Shown: positions 3,544 through 16,800 of the stretch, in pieces
Layout of the letters: the number at the start of each line of letters is the position of its first letter
How positions within the stretch are numbered: position 1 is the stretch's first letter
DNA from: Euzebya tangerina
GTDB taxonomy: Bacteria; Actinomycetota; Nitriliruptoria; Euzebyales; Euzebyaceae
DNA: 64,000 nucleotides
Reading direction: 5' to 3'
NCBI RefSeq assembly: GCF_003074135.1
Contig: NZ_PPDK01000001.1
Span: forward strand, 1,054,001 to 1,118,000
Program-made: the position numbers and the translations under genes
Notes under the pieces: generated by a model
Told to the model about the DNA's origin: nothing
The model's database searches: none
The model's input: only the letters and a program-made list of their open reading frames with translations

Positions 3544-6000
3544 ATGAGCGACATGTACGTAGGGGTCGGCGTCACCGAAGGGGAACGCGCCGATGAGCGC
3601 ACGATCATCGAGTCGGAGGACCTCACCACCCACGGCGTCATCGTCGGGATGACCGGGTCCGGGAAGACGGGCCTCGGCGTCATCGCCATCGAGGAGGCCC
3701 TCCTGGGCGGGATACCGGCCTTGGTGATCGACCCCAAGGGCGACATGGCCAACCTGTGCCTGCGCTTCCCCGACTTCGCCGCCTCGGATTTTGCGCCCTG
3801 GGTCGACGAGGGAGAGGCGACGAAGGGCGGACAGTCCATCGAGGAGTTGGCGGCCGCGACCGCCGCCATGTGGCAGGAGGGACTGCGAGGCTCCGGGGTC
3901 ACCGACGAGCAGGTTCGGACCTACGCCGACGTGCCGATGACGGTGTACACGCCGGGCGCGACGACGGGCGTGGGACTCAACCTGGTCGGGTCGCTCGACG
4001 CGCCCGAGGGGGTCGACGCCACCGCCGCCCAGGACGAGATCAGCGATACCGTCAGTGGCCTGCTGGCCCTCGTCGGGATCGAGTCCGACCCGCTGACGGG
4101 ACGAGAGCACATCCTCCTCACCAACCTGATCACCGATGCGTGGACCAAGGGCCGCTCCTTGGACATGCCGCAGCTGATCCAGGAGGTCCAGACCCCACCC
4201 ATCCGCAAGCTCGGCGTGATGGACCTGGAGACGTTCTTCCCAGCCGACGACCGGATGGGCCTGGCACTGCGGTTGAACGGCATGCTGGCCTCGCCGACCT
4301 TCGCTGCGTGGGCACAGGGCCAGCCGCTCGACATCAGCTCGATGCTCTTCACGCCGGAGGGCGGACCGAGGTGTGCCATCGTGTCCTTGGCGCACCTGTC
4401 GGACGAGGAGCGCCAGTTCGTCGTGACCCTCCTGCTCAGCCGGGTGATCACGTGGATGCGACAGCAGGCCGGTACCTCGAGCCTGCGTGCCATGATCTAC
4501 ATGGACGAGGTGTTCGGCTTCGTCCCACCGGTCAAGGCACCGCCGTCCAAGCAGCCCATCCTGACGATCCTCAAGCAGGCCCGAGCGTTCGGGGTCGGGA
4601 TGGTCCTGTCCACCCAGAACCCCGTGGACATCGACTACAAGGCCATCTCGAACGCCGGGACCTGGATGATCGGGCGGCTGCAGACCGAGCAGGACAAGGA
4701 CCGGCTCCTCGAGGGGATGCGCGCCTCCTCGGGTGCGGTCGACATCGACGCCATCAGCGACCAGATCTCGGGGCTCGACAAGCGGCAGTTCGTGCTGCAC
4801 TCGACCCGTGGGTCGGCGCCGTCGGTGTTCGCGACCAGGTGGGCGATCTCCTACCTCAGCGGGCCGATGACCGGACCGCAGATCGCGGAGCTGATGGCTG
4901 ACCAGAAGGCCGCCGTCGCCGAGGAGGAGGGATCCCCGGCGAAACGGGTCCCTGCAGCCGACGCCGCGGGCGCGACGAGTGCGGTGGCAGCGGCAGCCGG
5001 GGCGGAGACCGCCCAGGCCATCCCAGCCGCGCCGCCCGTGGCCGAGCAGGCGCTGGGAGATGACGAGAGCACCGTGGTGCCGACCGTGCCCGACGAGGTG
5101 ATCCAGCGCTTCCTGGATCCGGCGGCCGGGTGGGCCTCGTCGGTCGGCGCCGTCGCCGGGGGAACGCGACTGGTGCCCTACGTCGCCGTCCGCGTCCGCA
5201 TGACGTTCGATGAGACCAAGGCCGACCTGGACCACACCGAGGAGTTCGAGGCCGTTCTGCCCGTCACCACCGAGCCGACGGACACCTCCGGCATGGAGGC
5301 CGTCGACTACGACGACCGGGACCTGCGGCCATCCGGTCCGGCAAACGCCGTCTACGTCATCCCCGGCGCGAAGATCAACACCAAGACGTGGTGGAACACC
5401 GTCGAGCGCACCGTCCGTGACGAGCTGTACCGGACCCGGACGATGACGGTGCTCACCAACGCCGAGCTCAAGCTGTGGTCACGGCCGGGGGAGGACCGGG
5501 AGGCCTTCGAGGCGCGGTGTGACGCCGAGTCGGAGAAGCGGGAGGACGAGGAGGCCGAGAAGCTCCGCGCCAAGATGGAGACCAAGGCCGACCGCCTGCG
5601 TGACGCCATCGATCGGGCCCAGGACAAGGTCACGCAGTTGGAGGCTGACGTGTCCTCCCGCACGTCGAGTGAGCTGATCAACATCGGGACCTCCATCCTG
5701 GGCAGCTTCCTGGGCGGCCGGAAGTCGGCCCGAGGTGTAGCGGCCGACGTCCGCCGCGCCGCACGAGGGCGGGGTCAGACCTCACGCACGAAGCAGCGTC
5801 TGGAGACCGCAGAGGGGGAGGTCGTGGAGAAGATGGACGACCTCCGCGAGTTGGAGGACGAGTTGGCCGCCGAGCTGCTCGACATCGACCACCGCTGGAT
5901 GGAGGCGGCCGACGCCATCACGGAGGTCGAGGTCGGCCTGGAGAAGACCGACGTCCAGGTGACCAACGTCACACTCGTCTGGGTGCCGACCAAGCGCTGA
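3544..6000 (+). CDS. HerA-type ATP-binding protein with C-terminal coiled coil
   Basis: ATPase of the HerA/FtsK superfamily, 818 residues. The Walker A motif is GMTGSGKTG at residues 35-43, with Walker B in MIYMDEVFG near 317-325, followed by QARAFGVGMVLSTQNP. HerA-like proteins translocate DNA or act as hexameric motors; the substrate here is unknown. Residues about 455-540 are an Ala/Pro-rich linker. A C-terminal region (about 650-810) has two long charged helices flanking a hydrophobic stretch (ELINIGTSILGSFLGG), which could be a coiled-coil hairpin. The ATG at 3544 is preferred over a longer upstream frame because family homology starts there. A TAGGCT box lies about 40 nt upstream. Its last codons form the left copy of a direct repeat bounding a foreign-looking island. 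Confidence 0.88.
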   Translation: MSDMYVGVGVTEGERADERTIIESEDLTTHGVIVGMTGSGKTGLGVIAIEEALLGGIPALVIDPKGDMANLCLRFPDFAASDFAPWVDEGEATKGGQSIEELAAATAAMWQEGLRGSGVTDEQVRTYADVPMTVYTPGATTGVGLNLVGSLDAPEGVDATAAQDEISDTVSGLLALVGIESDPLTGREHILLTNLITDAWTKGRSLDMPQLIQEVQTPPIRKLGVMDLETFFPADDRMGLALRLNGMLASPTFAAWAQGQPLDISSMLFTPEGGPRCAIVSLAHLSDEERQFVVTLLLSRVITWMRQQAGTSSLRAMIYMDEVFGFVPPVKAPPSKQPILTILKQARAFGVGMVLSTQNPVDIDYKAISNAGTWMIGRLQTEQDKDRLLEGMRASSGAVDIDAISDQISGLDKRQFVLHSTRGSAPSVFATRWAISYLSGPMTGPQIAELMADQKAAVAEEEGSPAKRVPAADAAGATSAVAAAAGAETAQAIPAAPPVAEQALGDDESTVVPTVPDEVIQRFLDPAAGWASSVGAVAGGTRLVPYVAVRVRMTFDETKADLDHTEEFEAVLPVTTEPTDTSGMEAVDYDDRDLRPSGPANAVYVIPGAKINTKTWWNTVERTVRDELYRTRTMTVLTNAELKLWSRPGEDREAFEARCDAESEKREDEEAEKLRAKMETKADRLRDAIDRAQDKVTQLEADVSSRTSSELINIGTSILGSFLGGRKSARGVAADVRRAARGRGQTSRTKQRLETAEGEVVEKMDDLRELEDELAAELLDIDHRWMEAADAITEVEVGLEKTDVQVTNVTLVWVPTKR

Positions 6001-6004
6001 GCCA
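5977..6004 (+). repeat. Left direct repeat (att-like), 3' end of the HerA-type gene
   Basis: A 28-bp sequence starting GTCTGGGTGCCGACC matches 9146-9173 at 26 of 28 positions; the two differences are A/G at 5992 and T/C at 5998, both transitions. This copy includes the gene's last codons and its TGA stop. The two copies lie 3,169 bp apart and bracket the low-G+C island. Confidence 0.85.
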
Positions 6005-6089
6005 CTGGTGCTTTCACGCTAGACCAGCCGGATCGAGTCAGAGTAACCACGGTCATCCCGCGCCAAAGGTTCGCAGCCCTCAAACAGAG

Positions 6090-8885
6090 CTAGCTAAGTG
6101 GTTCGAGTTCGTCCCAGCGAAGGATCTGGAATTCCCTTCGCCCAACAGAATCGATGCTCCAGACCGCGTCCGCGACGCCTCGGGCGCGTGTGATGGCATC
6201 TCCGGTGATCTGGAGCAACACTGGCGCTCCGTGCCTAGATGCGACCGCAAAGGCCTCCCCCTCCTTGCTCGTAAGGTAGACACTGTTTCGCCCTACAGAG
6301 ATGATGCCCTCATCAACAATGGCATCAAGGGAGCCCCAAGCGGTTCCGTGAAATAATTGGTCTGGTTGGTCACCCATCGGTGAGACTCCGAGGTGCACCC
6401 TAAAACTGTGCCCATAGAGAGCACGCACACACATACCGGCCATTTCGAACCGTGGCTCGTCGGGATGCTGAACGATGTCAATGATCTCAGACATGTCAAC
6501 GTCAAGCACCTCAGCAAGCCAAGTCGTCTTCACAAATCCTTGAGTCGATGGGGACCCCCCGATTCGAGGGGCATCGTGGCGAAGAACCTTTGATATAGCC
6601 TTACTTAAGGTCTTTTGCGATCGTGTGAGAGGTGCTGCCACGAGGCCAGACGCGGAGAGTGCACTGGACACTTCAGAAGCAGCGCGGCGGAGACCTTCGG
6701 ATTCTCCAGAGATGGAGATCCAGTTAGCAAGCCTCCTACCGTATGTGTGACGCTCCTTACTCGTTCGCCCCGAGGTAACTAGCCACATCGCTCGCGAGAG
6801 TGCAAACCACTGATAGGCAGACCAAGCTGTAGACTCCTCGACCCCCAGCTGGGAGGTGTGCTTGTACTCATTGACAACCTGCCTGCGGCAGTGGATGTCG
6901 CTACTCTTGAACCCGTGCACTTGAAAGTCGTCCAGCAGTTGCGCAATATCCCACCCGAATGGGACGGTGCTCGTGCCTTCTAGGTCTACAGCAACGATTC
7001 GTCCAGTGGACTCCAGCAGCCAATTGCTAAGGTGCGCGTCCCTTTTGCGTACACCCGGCAAACCTTGTGGCAGACCTTCTCGGAACCGGGCCATGAACGT
7101 GTCGAGTTGATCGCCCCTCCCAAACAGTGTTCTCCCGCTGAGCTTGATGGCCTCCTTCGCAGTCCGCCAACCCTGTCCCTCGACCAGATCGTCATATGAC
7201 CTGTGGTAGTGCCCCAATAGGCGCGCAGTCTGAAGAAGACTTGCCGCGGCGTCTTCCCTTGAAAGGGAACTGAGCGGCACCCCCTTTCGCCGCTCTATGA
7301 TGTGGATGGATGAGTCGTCTCCTGTGACGACCGCTATGCTCGTAGGCGTTGCAAAATCCTGCGTGAGTCCGTGCTCTTCGAGGTATGCAGATAGGTGGGT
7401 ATGGTTTCGAGCCTCCCGGGAGCCGCCCTCGATGGAGGGCAACGGCTTCACGACGATGAGCCTGGACGCGTCTCCACGAACATCACCAATGGCAAAGACC
7501 CTGCTTCTCCCTCCTAGGTCTTCTCTGCGGTACTGGTTCGTTCGACGCTCTAGTTCAATAAATTCCTTCCATAAGCGATCGCTGTCGTCGGACTCGAAGG
7601 CTTGAGCTAGGCGGGCTGCAGTCAAAGCGGGAAGAGGCCAGCTCGGATGTTCTCTCCTTAGTTGAAGTGTCTTGCCAGCAGCTGCGTTTAGTTGGGACAC
7701 TTGTCGACTAAAGATGGCTTGAGACGCAAGAGTCTCTACGTATCGCCACTGGTTATGGCGGCTGGCAGTCAGTCTTGCCAACTCATCGGAGACGGCAGCG
7801 CAGCTCTTGTGAAGGTCTGGCGAAGCCAAGGCTGGTCGGTCAAGCTGCTCTCGCAAGAGAGACCAGATCACCATCGCAGCTGGAACGTTGACTTGTCTGT
7901 GACTCGCCCTTAGTTCGCGTTGCATTCTCCTGAGTGGTGGTAGGAGCACTCCGACGATTGTTTGCAGTTTCGCGTCTGGTAGAAGGGAAAGCTGGTCCAA
8001 GAGACCAAAGGGAAGTCGCAGTAACGCCCACGAGAAGCAACGCCTATCTTGCTTTGGCGACGTGATCACAGCAAGGAGCAGTGACTTCTGAAGGTATTCC
8101 CAGGCGTTGGCTGGGGCGAACTCTTGCAGATGGGTCTGGCACTCGGCCTCAACTGAGTCCCTAAGAAATGACTCGTCCTCCCCCGAGTGAGCAAGAAGAT
8201 GGAGGCGACAGGTGACGGAAATAAGGGTTAGATGATGGCGGTCAGCGATGCTAAGCGCTTCTTCGGTTAGGTTGATGTCACGCGTTTGAAAGGCGAGTTC
8301 GGTCAAGAGTTCGGCTAAGTACCGGTGTGCTTGGATAGTGTCGTTGCCCAAGTCAATAGAGGTCTTTAGCCTAGAACAGGCCATCTTGAGTCGACTGAGG
8401 TCCGACTTGCCCCACCTGACTGTGTTTGCGATAGAGACGGCGTAACGACCCAGGGCATCCTTCCGAGAGTGGAGCGGAAGTCGCTCACTCGCAATCGCGA
8501 AATCAAACTCGGAGGCAGCTTCAGAAAAGAGATGGATCGACCGGTCGCTGAGGCCTCGGGACTCCAGTTCTTGGGCTTCCTTCAAGAGCGATCGACCAAG
8601 CGCTAACGAGAGTTCGAGGAGGGCAACGGAGAAGGGCGAACGGCCGTGCATCTTCAGGGCTAGTCGAGCCCTGTGCGGATGTCGGCGGGCAAAATCGGCA
8701 GCAATGCAAAGAATAGGGGCCGAGAGATCAATGCCACGGGCCCAAGCTTGCACTAGAACATGCCCAGCCTCATCGTTGATCGGGCTGTCATGGAGTCTAG
8801 TTGGGAGAAGTGGTTCTGCTTCAACAACTCGCCCATATTCATCCATTGCGGCGAGAAGGGTTAATCGATCTTGCAAGTTTGCCAA
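6090..8885 (-). CDS. Three-part protein: helical repeats, APH-like kinase fold, Tpt1/KptA RNA 2'-phosphotransferase
   Basis: A 931-residue protein I do not recognise as a named gene. Residues about 1-440 are almost all helical and look like TPR-type repeats. Residues about 455-735 show an aminoglycoside-phosphotransferase/protein-kinase-like fold: Lys480 in VVVKPL, a catalytic loop RDAHLSN with Asp616 and Asn621, and Asp634 in VDLEG. Residues 753-925 match Tpt1/KptA, which removes an RNA 2'-phosphate using NAD+. The Arg-His-Arg-Arg tetrad is intact (R769, H770 in VLRHDAP; R821 in VRALYGHS; R884 in SRHGAPVLL), as is HGTA at 846. KptA alone is about 180 residues. The start is TTG with AGAAGG six nt upstream. 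It is the only gene on a low-G+C island, so horizontal transfer is likely. RNA repair or conflict is inferred. Confidence 0.85.
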   Translation of the reverse strand: MANLQDRLTLLAAMDEYGRVVEAEPLLPTRLHDSPINDEAGHVLVQAWARGIDLSAPILCIAADFARRHPHRARLALKMHGRSPFSVALLELSLALGRSLLKEAQELESRGLSDRSIHLFSEAASEFDFAIASERLPLHSRKDALGRYAVSIANTVRWGKSDLSRLKMACSRLKTSIDLGNDTIQAHRYLAELLTELAFQTRDINLTEEALSIADRHHLTLISVTCRLHLLAHSGEDESFLRDSVEAECQTHLQEFAPANAWEYLQKSLLLAVITSPKQDRRCFSWALLRLPFGLLDQLSLLPDAKLQTIVGVLLPPLRRMQRELRASHRQVNVPAAMVIWSLLREQLDRPALASPDLHKSCAAVSDELARLTASRHNQWRYVETLASQAIFSRQVSQLNAAAGKTLQLRREHPSWPLPALTAARLAQAFESDDSDRLWKEFIELERRTNQYRREDLGGRSRVFAIGDVRGDASRLIVVKPLPSIEGGSREARNHTHLSAYLEEHGLTQDFATPTSIAVVTGDDSSIHIIERRKGVPLSSLSREDAAASLLQTARLLGHYHRSYDDLVEGQGWRTAKEAIKLSGRTLFGRGDQLDTFMARFREGLPQGLPGVRKRDAHLSNWLLESTGRIVAVDLEGTSTVPFGWDIAQLLDDFQVHGFKSSDIHCRRQVVNEYKHTSQLGVEESTAWSAYQWFALSRAMWLVTSGRTSKERHTYGRRLANWISISGESEGLRRAASEVSSALSASGLVAAPLTRSQKTLSKAISKVLRHDAPRIGGSPSTQGFVKTTWLAEVLDVDMSEIIDIVQHPDEPRFEMAGMCVRALYGHSFRVHLGVSPMGDQPDQLFHGTAWGSLDAIVDEGIISVGRNSVYLTSKEGEAFAVASRHGAPVLLQITGDAITRARGVADAVWSIDSVGRREFQILRWDELEPLS

Positions 8886-9145
8886 GAGGTGCCTTCTGAT
8901 GGTGTGTCGGTCAGCTTCTGAACCGGGATTGTCGGCCTAATCGGAGCATGTAGTCACTGGCCGGTGGTGACCATCGACCCACGAGCGGGTAGCAACTCGA
9001 ACTGCGCGGGCCTACGTTGAACGCGGCTGCAAAGTTTGAAGTGGGCGGCATTAGACCACTCATCACGCAATCGCTTTGCGCGGAGGCCTAAAATCGCCAT
9101 CAATTCTACATTGCGGGGATCCGGCCGGATGACAGCCTCACCTGG
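8886..9145. other. Gap upstream of the kinase-Tpt1 gene, right end of the island
   Basis: No recognisable gene. On the minus strand a 48-residue frame (ATG near 9100 to a stop near 8957; MAILGLRAKRLRDEW...) is possible, Arg/Lys-rich in part, without a recognised family or a convincing ribosome binding site. It may be the remnant of an element gene or chance. The region must also carry the promoter of the kinase-Tpt1 gene; no convincing -35/-10 pair could be singled out by eye. Confidence 0.35.
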
Positions 9146-9173
9146 GTCTGGGTGCCGACCGAGCGCCGAGCCA
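9146..9173 (+). repeat. Right direct repeat (att-like)
   Basis: Second copy of the 28-bp repeat of 5977-6004. Read in the corresponding frame from 9131 it encodes DSLTWVWVPTERRA, closely like the C-terminal end of the HerA-type protein (VTLVWVPTKR-stop), but the stop codon is CGA here. It therefore looks like the displaced, decaying 3' end of that gene. It lies between the island and the convergent AI-2E transporter gene. Confidence 0.8.
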
Positions 9174-9198
9174 GGGACACCCAGCGCTGCGGACCCGG

Positions 9199-10233
9199 CT
9201 ACCGGGCCGGCTCGGTCACGAGCATGGCATGCGCCGCTGCGGACAGCGCCGCCGCGAGGGGTACCGCGAACAGGGCACCGACGATGCCGGCCTTCAGTCC
9301 GCCGACCGTCAGCACGACCAGCACGACCGCCGGGTGCAGCGGCAGGCGGTTGCCCATGACGAAGGGCTGCAGCAGGTTGCCGTCCACCTGTTGGATGGCC
9401 ACGTACAGGATGAGCACGATCACCGCCGTGGTGGTGCCGCCGCCAGCGAAGGCCAGGGCCACCGCGAGGCCACCCACGACGAAGGCTCCGACCACCGGGA
9501 CGAACGCGGCCAGGAACGTCAACACGACGAGGGCTGCGGCCATCGGCACCCCCAGTGCGAAGAGTCCGATGGCGCTCAGCGCCGCGTCGGCCAGGGCCAC
9601 GATGCACAGGCCCTGGACGTACTGGGAGACGGTGTTCCAGGCGGCTCCCGCGACCGCGTCGACCCGGTCGGACCGGTCGCCGAGCAGTGCCAGCGTCCAC
9701 TGCCACATGTCCCGCCCGTCGCGGAGCAGGAAGAAGGAGAGGACGATCGCGAGTGCGGCACCCGAGAGGAACTCTCCGACCGCACGAAGACCCCCCGAGG
9801 CTCGGCTGGACGCCCACTCCTGCGCGCTGGACAGCAACTCGGACGTGCGCGAGACGTCCACCGGCAGCTGCGGGTACTGCTCGCGCAGACGCTCGAGCGC
9901 GGCCGACACCTGATCGATCAGCTCCGGGAGCGTCTCCGCAAAGCGCCACCCGACCAGCGAGAACAGGGCCATCAGCGCCACCAGCCAGCTGACCGTGACC
10001 GTCAGCGCGGCGGCGGTACGGGGCCAGCCGCGAGCAGCGAGCCACTCCATCGGTGGGCTGAACGTGGCCGCCAAGAAGAGTGCGAAGGCGATGGCGGCAA
10101 CGACGACGATCAACTGCGCCAGGAGCCACACCACCAGGCCGACGGCCAAGGCGAGGCCGACGAACTGCCACGACCGACGGCCTATCGCGCTCAGCGGGAG
10201 CCGTTCGGGGAGCGGCGCGCGTTCATCGTCCAC
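9199..10233 (-). CDS. AI-2E family transporter (PerM/TqsA-like)
   Basis: A 344-residue polytopic membrane protein of the AI-2E/PerM family. Members have been linked to autoinducer-2 or cation export, so the substrate cannot be assigned here. The usual order is seen: two or three N-terminal helices (residues about 22-80), a soluble segment with ELIDQVSAALERLREQYP (about 105-150), then five or so helices. The family signature QVDGNLLQPFVMGNRLPLHP lies near residues 275-294, close to the C-terminal helices. The gene converges on the island and is divergent from recC across about 128 bp. Length is typical of the family. Confidence 0.9.
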   Translation of the reverse strand: MDDERAPLPERLPLSAIGRRSWQFVGLALAVGLVVWLLAQLIVVVAAIAFALFLAATFSPPMEWLAARGWPRTAAALTVTVSWLVALMALFSLVGWRFAETLPELIDQVSAALERLREQYPQLPVDVSRTSELLSSAQEWASSRASGGLRAVGEFLSGAALAIVLSFFLLRDGRDMWQWTLALLGDRSDRVDAVAGAAWNTVSQYVQGLCIVALADAALSAIGLFALGVPMAAALVVLTFLAAFVPVVGAFVVGGLAVALAFAGGGTTTAVIVLILYVAIQQVDGNLLQPFVMGNRLPLHPAVVLVVLTVGGLKAGIVGALFAVPLAAALSAAAHAMLVTEPAR

Positions 10234-10361
10234 AACCTCGCGTTTCCCCGATGCGGACGTTCTGAATACCGGCCGCGGGCCGATCCGATGGGACGGTGGG
10301 TGTCGCAGGCCCCCGGCATACTGCCTGTGGTGATGTGGCAGCGACGAGGAGGGTGGGCGAG

Positions 10362-13300
10362 GTGCTTAAGGTAGTCCGCGGCTCCCGTGGCGCCGACCTC
10401 GCCGATGCCCTGGCCGAGCGGCTGTCCAACCCGCTGCACGACCCGCTGGCGGCCGAGCAGATCGTCATCCACCGGCCAGGTCTCGAGCGCTGGCTCAGCC
10501 AACACCTCTCCGAGCACCTGGGTGCCCACCTCGGGTCCGACGGCATCTGCGCCAACGTGGATTTCCCGCGCCCGCTGGACATCGTGCGCAGTGCCATCAG
10601 GGCCGCCGGCGGGGTCGATCCTGCCGTCAGCCGGTGGAGCCCCCAGCGGCTGGTCTGGCCCCTGCTCACGCTGCTGACCTCGTCCGCCGGACCGCCTGCC
10701 TGGGCGGGGGTGCGGGCACGGATGAGCAGTGGTCCTGCGCAGCGATACGGGGTGGCTCGCGGGATCGCCGACCTCTTCGACAGCTACGCCACCCACCGTC
10801 CAGACATGGTCCTGTCGTGGCTCGAAGGCCACTCGGTCGACGGCCGAGGGACGTCGCTCGATGACACCGACGCGTGGCAGCCCGACCTCTTCCGAGCGCT
10901 GCGGGAGCTGGTCGACCAGCCGACGCTGGCCGAGTCCGTGCGTGACGCTGCAGCTCGGATGACCGCACCGGCGGACCTGCCCGACCGCATCAGTCTGTTC
11001 GGCTTCACCGCCCTTCCGGCCACGTACCTGACGATGCTGGTCGCACTTGCCCAGCACCTCGACGTCGACCTCTACACCCTTCACCCCTCACCAGGGCTGT
11101 GGCAGTCCCGGGCCGACGTGGGTCACGCCGCAAGCGACGCCCCGGGCGGGGCGGTGGGGTCCATCGTGCAGCTGCCGACCCGTGAGGAGGCGGCCCTCCC
11201 CCCACCGCAGAACCAGCTGCTCCGGTCATGGGGCACCCACGCAGCCGAGCTCCAACTGGTCGTGAACGCGGTCGCCCAGGATGCCCCCGTCACGGACGTC
11301 TCGGGCCCGGTGTCCGGGACCAGCACGTTGGCTCAACTCCAGGCGGGCATCAGCCGTGACACGTCGGTCCGGATCGATGCGGTCGACGACTCCGTCCAGA
11401 TCCACGCCTGTCACGGGCGCACGCGCCAGGTGCAGGTGCTGCGCGACGAGATCCTCCGGCTGCTGGCCGCCGACCCCACGCTGCAGCCCCGCGACATCGT
11501 CGTCATGTGCCCCGACGTGGAGGCCTTCGCGCCGCTGGTCACGGCCCACCTCGCGGTGCCCGACGACGACCCGGAGGGTCGGCCGGACCTCCGGGTTCGG
11601 CTGGCAGACCGCTCCATACGCCAGACCAACCCGGTCATGCGGGCGCTGGACGAGGTGCTCAGGCTGGCTGCCGGCCGCGTGACCGCGTCCCGGCTGCTCG
11701 ATCTGGCGGCCGCCGAACCGGTCAGCCGGCGGTTCGGCTTCACCACCGACGACCTGGCCACGCTCCGCGACTGGGCAGTTGAATCAGGCATGCGCTGGGG
11801 GCTGGACCTGGAGGACCGCGCCCGCGTCGGCGTCGGACTCGACGCCGGGACCATCGAGTTCGGCCTCTCGCGGATCCTGCTCGGTGTGGCCATGGCCGAT
11901 GAGGATCTCCGCACCGTTGGCCAGGTGACCCCGCTGGATGAGGTGGAGGGCAGCGCGGTGGTCCTCGCAGGACGGATGGCTGAGTTCGCCAGCCGCTTGA
12001 ACCAGGTGCTGCGGTCGCTGCGGACGACCGCGCCGCTGCACCAGTGGATCGACGCACTCCGGCAGGCCGTCAACCTGCTGATGCTGGAGCCCTGGGAGGA
12101 GACGTGGCAACGCACCCAGGTGCTCGACGTCCTGGCTGAGATCGGCGACTCGGCCGAGCGAGGACTGGCGCAGTCTCCGACGGTCGATCTCGACCTCTCC
12201 GACGTCCGGGCGTTGATGCACGAGCCGCTGCAGGGCCAGCCCACCCGCGCCAACCACCGGACCGGGGACCTGACGGTGTGCACCCTGGTGCCGATGCGGT
12301 CGGTGCCATACCGCGTGGTCTGTCTGCTGGGCATGGACGACGAGGTCTTCCCCCGACCGGACCACCAGCGAGGTGACGACCTGGTGGTCAGGGCTCCACG
12401 CGTGGGGGATGTGGACCGCCGCGGTGAGGATCGACAACTCCTGCTCGATGCCGTCATGGCGGCATCGGAGACGCTGATCGTGACCTACGACGGCATGGAC
12501 GTCCGGACGGGACGGCCCCGACCGCCGTGTTCCCCGATCACGGAGTTGGTGACCGTGCTCGGCGGCAAGGATGTGATCACCCGACATCCGTTGGCTCCGC
12601 ATGATCCGCGGGCCTTCCGCGCCGAGCGGCCGGGCTTCGACCCACAAGCGTTCGCTGCCGCGCAGGCGTTCGCTGCCGCCCAGCACACCCCCAGGCCGGG
12701 GAGCCGTAGTGCCTCCGCGGGGAGTCCCGCCGACCCCGTGGGGAGTCGTGCGGGCCGGGCCGAGCAGCTGCCCGACGACCCGGCGCCGCCCGTTCGGGTG
12801 GCGGACCTCGCCTCCTTCATGGTCGACCCGGTCGGCTACTTCTACCGCCACACCGCCGGGGCCTACGTGCCCTCGGACCCCGAGCAGGGTGACCAGCAGG
12901 TGCCACTCTCACTGCGCGGCCTGGACTACTGGAGGGTCGGTCAGTCGATACTCGATGCGCTGGTGATCGCCGGTGATGAGCCGGTCGAGGAAGCGCAACG
13001 AGAGGCGTCCGACAGCGACGCCGGTGATGACGCCGTCAGGGCGATCGTCGAGCACCTCCGCGGGACGGGACTCATGCCCCCACCTGGCATGTCGAACCAG
13101 CTGGACGGCATCCGGGACATCGCGGTCTCGATCGCGGACCTGATGACGCTGCGAGATCTACCCGCGAGCCCTGCTGGGCGGGTCGAGGTCGAGCTGCAGA
13201 TCGACGGGAGGACGCTCTTCGGTCGTGTCGACCGAATCGACGGGAACCTCCGGGTCGTCAGGTCCTTCTCCCGGGTCCAGGCCAAGCAGATCGCGAAGGC

Positions 13301-13835
13301 GTGGGTCAACCATCTGGTGCTCACGGTGCACGACCCGGCTACCCCGTGGGAGTCCTGGGTCGTCGGCCGCCACGGCGCCGAGGAGAAGAAGAAGCGACCA
13401 CACGCGGCCGTCTTCGAGCCACTGGGCCGCACCCTGGAGCAGCGACGTCGAACGGCCGAGATGATCCTGCGCGACCTGCTCGAGGTCCATGACGAGGCCC
13501 TCCGGCAGCCGCTGATCGTCCCGGCGCAGACGGCAGCCGCGTACGCCAAGGCACGCGTGCTGCAGCACCGGTCAGCCGCCGAGGCCGACGACGAGGCCGC
13601 CCTTGCCTGGGACCACGACGACTTCGGATACGGCAAGGATGCTGACCTGCCAGCGCACCTGATGCTCTTCGGTGACCAGGTCGCCTACGAGACCCTGACG
13701 GGGGAGCCTGCCCGGCCACAGGACACCCGTCTGGGTCAGGAGCCCGAGCCCCACCGGTTCGGTGGCCTGGCGGTGCGGCTATGGCAGCCGCTGCTGACAC
13801 ACTGCACGGCGGCGGGGCCGGGTGTTCGGCGATGA
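10362..13835 (+). CDS. recC: RecC, exodeoxyribonuclease V gamma subunit
   Basis: Subunit of RecBCD, which processes double-strand breaks and recognises Chi-like sites. The 1157-residue sequence has the RecC layout: an inactive helicase-like N-terminal half beginning KVVRGSRGADLADALAERL, the segment VIHRPGLERWLSQHL, a CHGRTRQVQVLRDEILRLL element and a C-terminal domain with HAAVFEPLG. The GTG at 10362 is preferred because AGGAGGG lies 8 nt upstream; an extra 22-residue N-terminal extension is otherwise possible. Two copies of an 18-bp unit encode AFAAAQ repeats near 12650. The stop overlaps the recB ATG (ATGA). It is the first gene of recC-recB-recD-pyrE-like. Confidence 0.92.
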   Translation: MLKVVRGSRGADLADALAERLSNPLHDPLAAEQIVIHRPGLERWLSQHLSEHLGAHLGSDGICANVDFPRPLDIVRSAIRAAGGVDPAVSRWSPQRLVWPLLTLLTSSAGPPAWAGVRARMSSGPAQRYGVARGIADLFDSYATHRPDMVLSWLEGHSVDGRGTSLDDTDAWQPDLFRALRELVDQPTLAESVRDAAARMTAPADLPDRISLFGFTALPATYLTMLVALAQHLDVDLYTLHPSPGLWQSRADVGHAASDAPGGAVGSIVQLPTREEAALPPPQNQLLRSWGTHAAELQLVVNAVAQDAPVTDVSGPVSGTSTLAQLQAGISRDTSVRIDAVDDSVQIHACHGRTRQVQVLRDEILRLLAADPTLQPRDIVVMCPDVEAFAPLVTAHLAVPDDDPEGRPDLRVRLADRSIRQTNPVMRALDEVLRLAAGRVTASRLLDLAAAEPVSRRFGFTTDDLATLRDWAVESGMRWGLDLEDRARVGVGLDAGTIEFGLSRILLGVAMADEDLRTVGQVTPLDEVEGSAVVLAGRMAEFASRLNQVLRSLRTTAPLHQWIDALRQAVNLLMLEPWEETWQRTQVLDVLAEIGDSAERGLAQSPTVDLDLSDVRALMHEPLQGQPTRANHRTGDLTVCTLVPMRSVPYRVVCLLGMDDEVFPRPDHQRGDDLVVRAPRVGDVDRRGEDRQLLLDAVMAASETLIVTYDGMDVRTGRPRPPCSPITELVTVLGGKDVITRHPLAPHDPRAFRAERPGFDPQAFAAAQAFAAAQHTPRPGSRSASAGSPADPVGSRAGRAEQLPDDPAPPVRVADLASFMVDPVGYFYRHTAGAYVPSDPEQGDQQVPLSLRGLDYWRVGQSILDALVIAGDEPVEEAQREASDSDAGDDAVRAIVEHLRGTGLMPPPGMSNQLDGIRDIAVSIADLMTLRDLPASPAGRVEVELQIDGRTLFGRVDRIDGNLRVVRSFSRVQAKQIAKAWVNHLVLTVHDPATPWESWVVGRHGAEEKKKRPHAAVFEPLGRTLEQRRRTAEMILRDLLEVHDEALRQPLIVPAQTAAAYAKARVLQHRSAAEADDEAALAWDHDDFGYGKDADLPAHLMLFGDQVAYETLTGEPARPQDTRLGQEPEPHRFGGLAVRLWQPLLTHCTAAGPGVRR

Positions 13836-16800
13836 GCGGCGCCTGGACCAGCGGCCCCCCGGAGCCGACGCGATTCGACCTCGGTGACCCCCTGCCACAG
13901 GGCCACGTGACGCTGGAGGCGTCAGCCGGGACCGGCAAGACGCACAGCATCGTGGGGTTGGCCGTCCGATACCTGGCCGAGGGGCACTGCACCGCCGCAG
14001 GTCTCCTGGTCGTGACGTTCGCCCGGTCGGCGACGCGCGAGCTGCGAGAGCGGCTGCTGGAGGGCCTCGCCTGGGCTGTGGCCCTGCTAGAGGACCACCT
14101 GGACGGTCGCCTGGTCACCGATAGCGACGAGCCGGACGGATTGCGACGTGCCCTCTGCGGCGGCACCGATCAGGCCGTGCTCCACGCACGACATGATCGC
14201 CTGGCTCGGGCCCTGGCCGACATCGACCAGGCAACCGTGACGACGATCCACGGCTTCGCCGGTCTGATGCTGCAGCTGATCGGCGACCAGATCGACGCCA
14301 GCCGTCTGATCGAGGACGACACCGAACTGCTCCAGCAGATCGCCGGTGACCTGCGGCTGCGGGTCCTGGCGGACTCCCCCGACGACGTGGCCTCCCTGCC
14401 GTGGGTGGACAGCGGACCCGAGTTGGCGCAGAAGGGAACCCGATACGGCCCAGACGCCGTCATGCCCCCACCGTCGCTGGGGAGCTGGGAGACGGCGCCG
14501 TCATGGATGGCGGTCGAGGCCGGCCGTGAGTACCGCCGGCGGTCGGACCAGATGCTGGTCCACACCCACGACGACGTCCTCCGAACCCTGCGTGATGCGC
14601 TGCAGGACACCGCAACCGCCGCCCGATTGGGACAGCGCTTCCGCGTCGCGCTGATCGATGAGTTCCAGGACACCGACCCGGTCCAGTGGGACATCGTCTC
14701 CCTGCTCTTCCCACCACCGCCAACCCTGCAGGTGGTCGGAGCCTCACCCCCATCCGGCTCAGCCGGCTCGCCGGCCGTGGTCATGGTGGGGGATCCGAAG
14801 CAGGCCATCTACGCCTTCCGCGGCGCGGATGTCCACGCCTACCTCGAGGCCCGTGGTGCCAGGGCTTCCTACACCCTGCCCACCAACCGTCGATCGGACC
14901 GGCCGCTGGTCGACGCCGTCCTCGACCTGTTCACCGACCAGAACCTCGGTGCAGGCATCGACGTGCCGCGGGTCGAGGCCCACGTCGACCGCTCGCGGCT
15001 AACCGGTACGGCCATGGCCCCGGTCGATGTCCGGCTGGTCCCTGATGACGCCGCCGTGCGTCGCACCAAGGACGGTGGGATGAGCACGAGCAGCTTGCGC
15101 GAGTTCGTGGCCCGGGATGTGGCCGTCCAAGCGGCAGCGCTGCTCGGCGCCGGTGTGCAGATCGCCGACGCCCCGACGGAGGAGGACGCGGCCCCGCGGG
15201 AGGGGCGGGCACTGGTGCCGCACGACCTCGCCATCCTCGTCCGCACCCGGCGGCAAGCCTCCATCGTGCAGCGACAGCTGACCACCGTGGGTGTGCCCTC
15301 GATCCTGAACGGCGTTGGCAACGTGCTGCGCACCCGAGCGGCCAGGGACTGGGCGCACCTGCTGCGCGCCCTGGCCGAGCCGTCCAGGTCCTCACCGGCT
15401 CGCCTGGCTGCGCTGACGGACCTCATCGGCTGGACGCCCCACTCGATCAGCCTGGCCACGTCGGCGGAGTGGGACCGGTTGCACATCAACCTGCACGACT
15501 GGCGAGCCGTCCTCGAGGGGGACGGGGTCGCCGCGGTCCTGCGCCACGTCGAGGCCGCCACCCAGCTCTCCGTCAGGTTGGTCTCCGAGGCCGATGGGCT
15601 GCGGCGGCTGACCGATCTGCGGCACGTCGCCGAGTTGCTGCACCAGGTGGCCAGTGACGAGCTCGTCGGCATCCCTGGCCTGGTCGCCTGGCTGGAGGCA
15701 GGGCTCGCGGTGGCCGGGGAGGCCGACTCACCGGTCCCGCCCGAGAGCATCGCCTCACGGCTGGAGCGGGAGGACGGCGCGGTCCAGATCATGACCGTCC
15801 ACGGCGCGAAGGGACTGGAGTTCGGCGTCGTCTTCGCCCCGTACCTGTGGGACACCGGCGGCCGCGCAACGGCCGCGTTCGACGTCCACGACCCACGACT
15901 TGGTCACCGCGTGCTCTACGCCGGCCGCAGCAAGAAGGCACCCGAGTACCAGCACTACAAGGACCTCCACACGCAGCAGGCGGAGGAGGAGGAACGACGG
16001 CTGGCCTACGTCGCCGCGACCCGCGCCAAGCACCACCTGCGGGTGTGGTTCGCACCGGGCCGTCGGGTCGCGGACTCGCCGCTCGGAACCCTGCTGTCCC
16101 GAGGAGGTGAGAGGGTCACGTCGACCGCGGACGCGGAGGCGTCCCTGCGGCTGCTGCAGGAGGAACGCTCCAGCGCGATCGCGATCAGTCACGTATCGGA
16201 CGAGGCTCCGGTCCCCGACGTGCATGTGGAGCGGAGATCGCAGGTCGCTCCGGTGCTGGCTCGGTTCGACCGCAGCATCGACGGCCAGTGGCGCCGGACG
16301 TCGTACAGCCGCATCTCCGGCCAGGCCAGTGACCCCGCCACGGCTGGGATGGCCGGGCAACAGGACACGAGCGCAGGTGGTCTGGCCGGTCCGGTTGACG
16401 GCACGCCACCGGAGGACCGGCCTCCACGAGCACCCGCGCTCCACGAACTCGGTGGGGAACCTGACCTCTCTGCCGGTGGGGAACCTGACCTCTCTGCCGG
16501 GGAGTCTGACGGTCCTGGTGGGGAACCTGACCCTGCTCTGGAGGCGCCCGTTCCGCTCCGACGGCTCCGCGGCGGCGCAGACGTCGGGACGGTGATCCAC
16601 TCGGTGCTCGAGAACCTGGACTTCCGGGACGCCGACGTCCGCGGAGCGTCGCTGGATGCCCGGATCGCGGGCGAACTGTCGCGCCAGATCACCCGCCAGG
16701 CGCTCGATCTCGGCGATGCGGAGGAGGTCGACGTCGCGGGCGGTCTCGCGGCGGCACTGCGCACCCCCCTCGGACCCGCAACCGACCCGACCCTCGGCTC

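Follow-up and report, generated by a model that had tools for sequence, protein, structure and literature searches.

A kinase-Tpt1/KptA fusion protein with a TPR-like region on a single-gene island of Euzebya tangerina, and its relatives in other phyla

The fusion gene and its island in Euzebya tangerina

Within the window, the 64,000-nucleotide stretch of Euzebya tangerina DNA analyzed here, one gene encodes a three-part protein composed of a predicted TPR-like helical region, an APH-fold kinase domain, and a Tpt1/KptA domain. The first-pass annotation had placed this reading frame at 6090-8885; its coordinates are confirmed, and it lies on the minus strand. The plus strand across the same interval is crowded with stops. 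The gene, its domains, and the surrounding island are as follows.

6090..8885, minus strand: fusion gene, 931 aa, with a TTG start and AGAAGG at 8892-8897, six bases upstream
7551..8885, minus strand: residues 1-445, TPR-like helical repeat region, a putative sensor or scaffold (AlphaFold2 and weak fold matches)
6630..7550, minus strand: residues 446-752, kinase domain of the APH fold plus a helical linker (Pfam, AlphaFold2, and Foldseek)
6090..6629, minus strand: residues 753-931, Tpt1/KptA NAD+-dependent RNA 2'-phosphotransferase domain (Pfam and PDB Tpt1 chains)
5977..6004, plus strand: left direct repeat, 28 bp, covering the 3' end of a HerA-like gene (repeat search)
9146..9173, plus strand: right direct repeat, 26 of 28 positions identical, a probable att-like site or target duplication (repeat search)
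6005..9145, no strand: 3.1-kb single-gene island between the repeats, 56% GC

The description of this region as a foreign-looking island is borne out by base composition: the fusion ORF has 56% GC and a GC3 of 0.59, versus ~70-71% GC and a GC3 of 0.85 in the neighboring recC. The repeat pair had no chance matches in 100 shuffles, and no integrase is found between the 28-bp repeats. Judged from its sequence, the island resembles an insertion at a gene end, with that end either duplicated or brought in. The right repeat looks like another copy of the HerA-like gene's 3' end, the kind of pattern that site-specific gene-end insertion leaves. In the nearest relatives (L049 and L050), siderophore-uptake-type genes lie between the HerA-like gene and recC, and both the island and the AI-2E gene are absent, indicating that this spot is variable; since it is occupied by the siderophore-type cluster there, no clean empty site can be demonstrated. 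Far outside the window, the same genome also encodes a canonical stand-alone KptA (contig C1:2281669-2282160 of G000; L001), and the fused copy is thus an addition.

Domain organization and catalytic residues

The proposed fusion of helical, APH, and Tpt1 parts is real, and both catalytic sites are intact by residue. At the C terminus, residues 757-899 match Pfam PTS_2-RNA (PF01885; E 6.6e-22, 78.8 bits versus a cut-off of 26) over profile positions 3-159 of 177, and residues 757-903 match PDB Tpt1 chains with E values down to 5e-15. The catalytic tetrad of CthTpt1 consists of Arg18, His19, Arg68, and Arg121, with Arg139 as the NAD-phosphate arginine and an HGT motif at 101-103 (PMC6333775). 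The corresponding residues, placed by alignment to PDB Tpt1 and the published CthTpt1 numbering, are these.

6576..6581, minus strand: tetrad residues R769-H770
6423..6425, minus strand: tetrad residue R821
6288..6290, minus strand: tetrad residue R866, equivalent to CthTpt1 Arg121
6234..6236, minus strand: R884, NAD-contacting arginine, equivalent to CthTpt1 Arg139

An earlier reading of the tetrad as R769, H770, R821, and R884 holds for its first three members, while the alignment to CthTpt1 makes R866 the fourth; the published numbering, the spacing from the HGT motif at 846-848, and the HMMER alignment equate Arg121 with R866 and Arg139 with R884. Both arginines are conserved among family members, and the R-H-R-R tetrad is invariant in all six fused proteins whose KptA was readable. 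The HGT motif of the window protein (H846-G847-T848) is replaced by HGS in the other fused proteins. In genome searches, the fused KptA is ~31-38% identical to stand-alone relatives. By these features the domain is a complete Tpt1/KptA, predicted to remove RNA 2'-phosphates in an NAD+-dependent manner. It has the tetrad, HGT motif, and NAD-contact arginine in common with the family (PF01885), whose members normally stand alone with ~180-200 aa, whereas the window copy follows a helical region and a kinase in the same chain.

In the middle of the protein, Pfam APH (PF01636) matches residues 461-654 above the cut-off when the whole protein is scanned (E 3.5e-6), improving to E 1.6e-7 when the kinase segment is scanned alone. 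The AlphaFold2 model of the kinase is confident (pLDDT 87.8) and has an APH fold, as had been anticipated for this segment; its best Foldseek match is 3csv (E 4e-7, probability 1.00), followed by aminoglycoside, maltose (maltokinase), and glucosamine kinases. A profile search of the kinase returned 3csv as its sole structure. The principal catalytic residues are listed below.

7446..7448, minus strand: Lys480, ATP-binding lysine, invariant in 12 of 12 proteins
7020..7046, minus strand: catalytic loop K614-R-D616-A-H-L-S-N621-W622; KRDxHxxNW invariant in 12 of 12 proteins, partly by construction for KRD, N, and W
6984..6986, minus strand: Asp634, metal-binding aspartate, invariant in 12 of 12 proteins

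The kinase residues named by the first-pass annotation (K480, D616, N621, and D634) are thus present as claimed and invariant in all 12 proteins, although the invariance of KRD, N, and W is partly by construction, because those positions sat in the search bait. E491 and H561 join the conserved set; together with K480 they were absent from the bait, yet all three are invariant in 12 of 12 proteins. Sequence and model together identify the segment at ~455-735 as an APH superfamily kinase with predicted activity. Its fold and catalytic residues are common to the superfamily, including 3csv (a putative aminoglycoside phosphotransferase), maltokinase, and glucosamine kinase, but it differs by its KRDxHxxNW loop and by being embedded in a 931-aa TPR-like/KptA protein.

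Membership in the ArkI kinases was considered and rejected: the HGQ motif is absent, the catalytic loop reads KRDxHxxNW, and the listed PDB matches include no ArkI. ArkI, an ePK-like kinase in which HGQ and DFE motifs occur, is encoded by a gene of its own, whereas the window kinase is APH-type.

The N-terminal region has no match in a Pfam scan, TPR included. The AlphaFold2 model shows all-helical hairpin repeats at moderate confidence (pLDDT 72), and its Foldseek matches are weak (TM 0.2-0.3) and mostly to TPR superhelices, which agrees with the earlier description of the first ~440 residues as TPR-like. In profile comparisons, the fused N terminus matches its Actinoplanes sister protein weakly and its Chloroflexota sister not significantly; the latter protein carries a Pfam TPR-S sensor domain (E 1e-8).

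Conservation across phyla and genomic context of the family

How widespread is this architecture? The window's own genome aside, none of the 397 sampled genomes of the phylum showed the fusion, and neither the N-terminal part nor the kinase has a convincing relative among the phylum genomes sampled. Exact-peptide single-sequence scans of genome and viral contigs found nothing. As a search device, we used a bait alignment in which the catalytic motifs were kept and the filler sequence was deliberately varied. This motif-based search led to the edge of an IMG/VR provirus, where locus L030 encodes a full-length homologue of 958 aa (31% identity over 919 aa), and a second, stricter motif alignment returned eleven loci in a collection of 84,980 species genomes. 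A Pfam re-check, which does not depend on the search motifs, confirmed the kinase and/or KptA in the matches. Because the searches leaned on few motifs, the counts of relatives are lower bounds. One pattern match (L029) was discarded as a chance match, and KptA matches with long open frames in related genomes proved to be stand-alone KptA genes with overlapping frames rather than fusions. Plasmid and phage collections gave only stand-alone KptA matches; the Listeria phage contigs OR848121 and OR846722 each carry an unannotated stand-alone KptA.

The architecture is not unique to the window, as at least six more fusions were found. Complete fusions with the same domain order are present in Aquitalea (the same protein as in the IMG/VR provirus), Pseudomonas sp. 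SJZ079, Stenotrophomonas, and Chromobacterium, and the existence of full-length homologues with this order in other phyla indicates that the fusion is not due to chance. The Gallionellaceae copy retains kinase and KptA but has lost its start at a contig edge. In Chitinolyticbacter, the gene is split inside KptA, with the KptA part on a second contig and divergent contig ends, reflecting either a misassembly or a real disruption. The Acidimicrobiaceae copy ends at a contig edge before any KptA could appear. Sister proteins lacking KptA are found in Actinoplanes, Kribbella, Nocardia, and Chloroflexota. Proteobacterial fusions are 59-80% identical to each other and ~29-33% identical to the window copy, which forms a long separate branch beside them in the kinase tree.

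The fused KptA is the sole KptA in all six proteobacterial genomes that have the fusion, indicating that it is no stray duplicate there. Among the genomes with sister proteins, those of Kribbella and Actinoplanes encode a separate ordinary KptA, and those of Nocardia and Chloroflexota have none.

Fused copies are GC-poor, solitary genes. The Aquitalea fusion lies between tmRNA (0.9 kb off) and a prophage tail/D12-methyltransferase end, and the Gallionellaceae fusion is ~160 bp from tRNA-Asn; the Pseudomonas, Stenotrophomonas, and Chromobacterium copies showed no flanking repeats like those of the window. At locus L031 (7294-11446), the fusion has tmRNA on one side and a prophage end on the other, and it is preceded by a tandem-like repeat of 154 nt (7950-8331). 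Upstream of the fusion, the Chitinolyticbacter contig (L034, 825-7653) has a gene for an AbiEi-type antitoxin and what is probably a fragment of a transposase. The first-pass annotation had raised the prospect of RNA-repair or nuclease genes nearby, which the loci examined do not bear out: the gene is alone, with no ligase or nuclease partner recognized adjacent to it. RNA ligase, RtcB, cyclic phosphodiesterase, and Pnkp were not recognized among the neighbors read or scanned in the window and the homologous loci, a subset of these neighbors having been profiled.

The surroundings of the sister genes are different. The KptA-less sister genes of Kribbella and Nocardia are each convergent with a gene encoding a large WD40 protein, in which Kribbella has a NACHT/AAA region; next comes a lipase-like gene, classed as LCAT by Pfam in Kribbella and similar by sequence in Nocardia (sister, WD40, and lipase-like genes at L039, 7364-16472, and L040, 7217-16555). 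This arrangement is possibly a new conflict-system cluster of Actinomycetota. A caspase label for the Kribbella STAND-type protein was dropped, as its first 270 aa have no Pfam match. The Chloroflexota locus (L041) is probably a defense island; at 7670-16723, an SspD-like gene and further genes of low GC lie close to its TPR-S kinase gene. PADLOC defense models gave no match. The sisters resemble STAND/TPR-S conflict systems in adjoining STAND-type NTPase/WD40 genes and, in Chloroflexota, in having a TPR-S domain, and active APH kinases have been reported as occasional effectors in such systems; the fused gene differs in being solitary and without a STAND partner, and the term KptA is absent from the paper that describes these systems (eLife 2020 e52696).

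The earlier impression that no such three-part protein had been described agrees with the literature and family libraries searched: the papers searched contain no description of a kinase-Tpt1 fusion, which may still have been mentioned before, for example in RNA-repair reviews, and Pfam, NCBIfam, and PADLOC contain no whole-protein family of this kind.

A candidate writer and eraser of phosphate in one chain

What would a kinase and a Tpt1/KptA do in the same protein? The reading we prefer, tentatively and knowing that it may well prove wrong, is that the fusions form a small, horizontally moving family in which the kinase adds a phosphate and Tpt1/KptA removes or caps the same phosphate, possibly on RNA. 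The TPR-like N-terminal region would sense or dock a signal or substrate and gate the process, the APH-fold kinase would phosphorylate a hydroxyl group, and the same kind of phosphate would be attacked with NAD+ by the C-terminal Tpt1/KptA, which would either release it as ADP-ribose cyclic phosphate or cap it with ADP-ribose. RNA would be the most economical substrate: its ribose 2'-OH would be phosphorylated and then cleared by a writer and an eraser in one chain, and the module may serve phage defense or stress control. We infer the coupling of both active sites on one phosphate, the RNA substrate, the TPR gating, and the defense role.

KptA chemistry is known only on phosphates, the 2'-PO4 or 5'-PO4 of RNA (PMC6333775, PMC11833690), so the fused kinase can supply a KptA substrate. 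The authors of the CthTpt1 structure suggested that internal 2'-OH groups of RNA might be targets of a kinase yet to be discovered (PMC6333775). ArkI phosphorylates the 2'-OH of tRNA U47 and KptA erases that phosphate (PMC9095486); this pair, found in archaea and some bacteria, is by analogy a precedent for the writer/eraser principle, a logic that it would have in common with the fusion. Our explanation is supported by the retention of both catalytic centers across deep divergence, with the same domain order at 31% identity, by the fused KptA being the sole one in the six proteobacterial genomes, and by the STAND-type/WD40, LCAT-like, and SspD-like genes near the KptA-less sisters; the solitary, low-GC, att-like settings (tmRNA/prophage, tRNA-Asn, and 28-bp repeats) support mobility. 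The occurrence of the fusion in unrelated bacteria and a prophage suggests a self-contained phosphate-switch or defense module, and the context favors a role in conflict or as mobile cargo. Against the explanation, the kinase fold is nearest to small-molecule and sugar kinases, not to ArkI, and no PADLOC model matches. A bolder version, in which a one-protein, TPR-triggered RNA 2'-phosphate writer-eraser marks RNA in phage infection or stress and spends NAD+ on erasing, is unlikely.

The existence of KptA-less sisters, two of whose genomes lack any KptA, implies that the kinase is useful without an eraser, and it makes a different division of labor the main rival and a serious alternative, even if we rate it as rather unlikely. 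TPR and kinase would here be a sensor/regulator shared with the KptA-less relatives, and KptA an attached NAD+-dependent effector. The sensing of phage or stress would release this effector, which would ADP-ribosylate RNA ends with toxic effect or deplete NAD+; the kinase would act on its own protein or a partner instead of on KptA's substrate. Such a TPR-kinase core without KptA occurs in Actinoplanes, Kribbella, Nocardia, and Chloroflexota, adjoining STAND-type/WD40 and LCAT-like genes in Kribbella and Nocardia, as in conflict systems, and carrying the TPR-S sensor domain (E 1e-8) in Chloroflexota. KptA-like toxins that ADP-ribosylate RNA ends have already been proposed (PMC11833690). However, the fused KptA keeps the full tetrad for two-step 2'-phosphate removal, which would be dispensable for a toxin that only ADP-ribosylates, and the link to partner genes is based on two loci.

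Small-molecule substrates come into question because the kinase is APH-type, not ArkI-type: it might phosphorylate a sugar, a nucleotide, or an antibiotic whose phosphate KptA removes or caps, RNA being uninvolved. The nearest structures are indeed sugar and aminoglycoside kinases, but a large TPR-like region and a prophage/att-site context are unusual for drug-modifying enzymes, and no resistance genes were recognized next to the fusion; the drug modification suggested beforehand gained no specific support, and we regard this option as quite unlikely. Healing of RNA ends, with the kinase phosphorylating 5'-OH and KptA clearing 2'-phosphates after cuts by metal-independent nucleases, would combine two steps of the fungal (yeast-type tRNA repair) ligation pathway, and a role in RNA repair has been discussed for phage and bacterial KptA (PMC9503650). 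The loci examined showed no recognizable RNA ligase, cyclic phosphodiesterase, or RtcB beside the gene, and without a ligase partner such healing is improbable. Known polynucleotide 5' kinases are P-loop enzymes, not of the APH fold, which also counts against it. An accidental fusion or annotation artifact, which the rarity of the protein among the 397 phylum genomes might have suggested, is refuted by homologues in other phyla that conserve the ORF at 31% identity with all catalytic residues, and we give it practically no weight.

Tpt1/KptA is widespread in bacteria, and a kinase and a Tpt1 in one conserved chain are a direct candidate for answering the question of its natural substrate, one that a single purified kinase-Tpt1 protein makes testable. 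If the 2'-phosphate writer-eraser is true, bacterial Tpt1 would gain a long-missing endogenous substrate and a new defense mechanism would be defined; if the fusion is a defense module, bacterial immunity would gain a novel use of NAD+.
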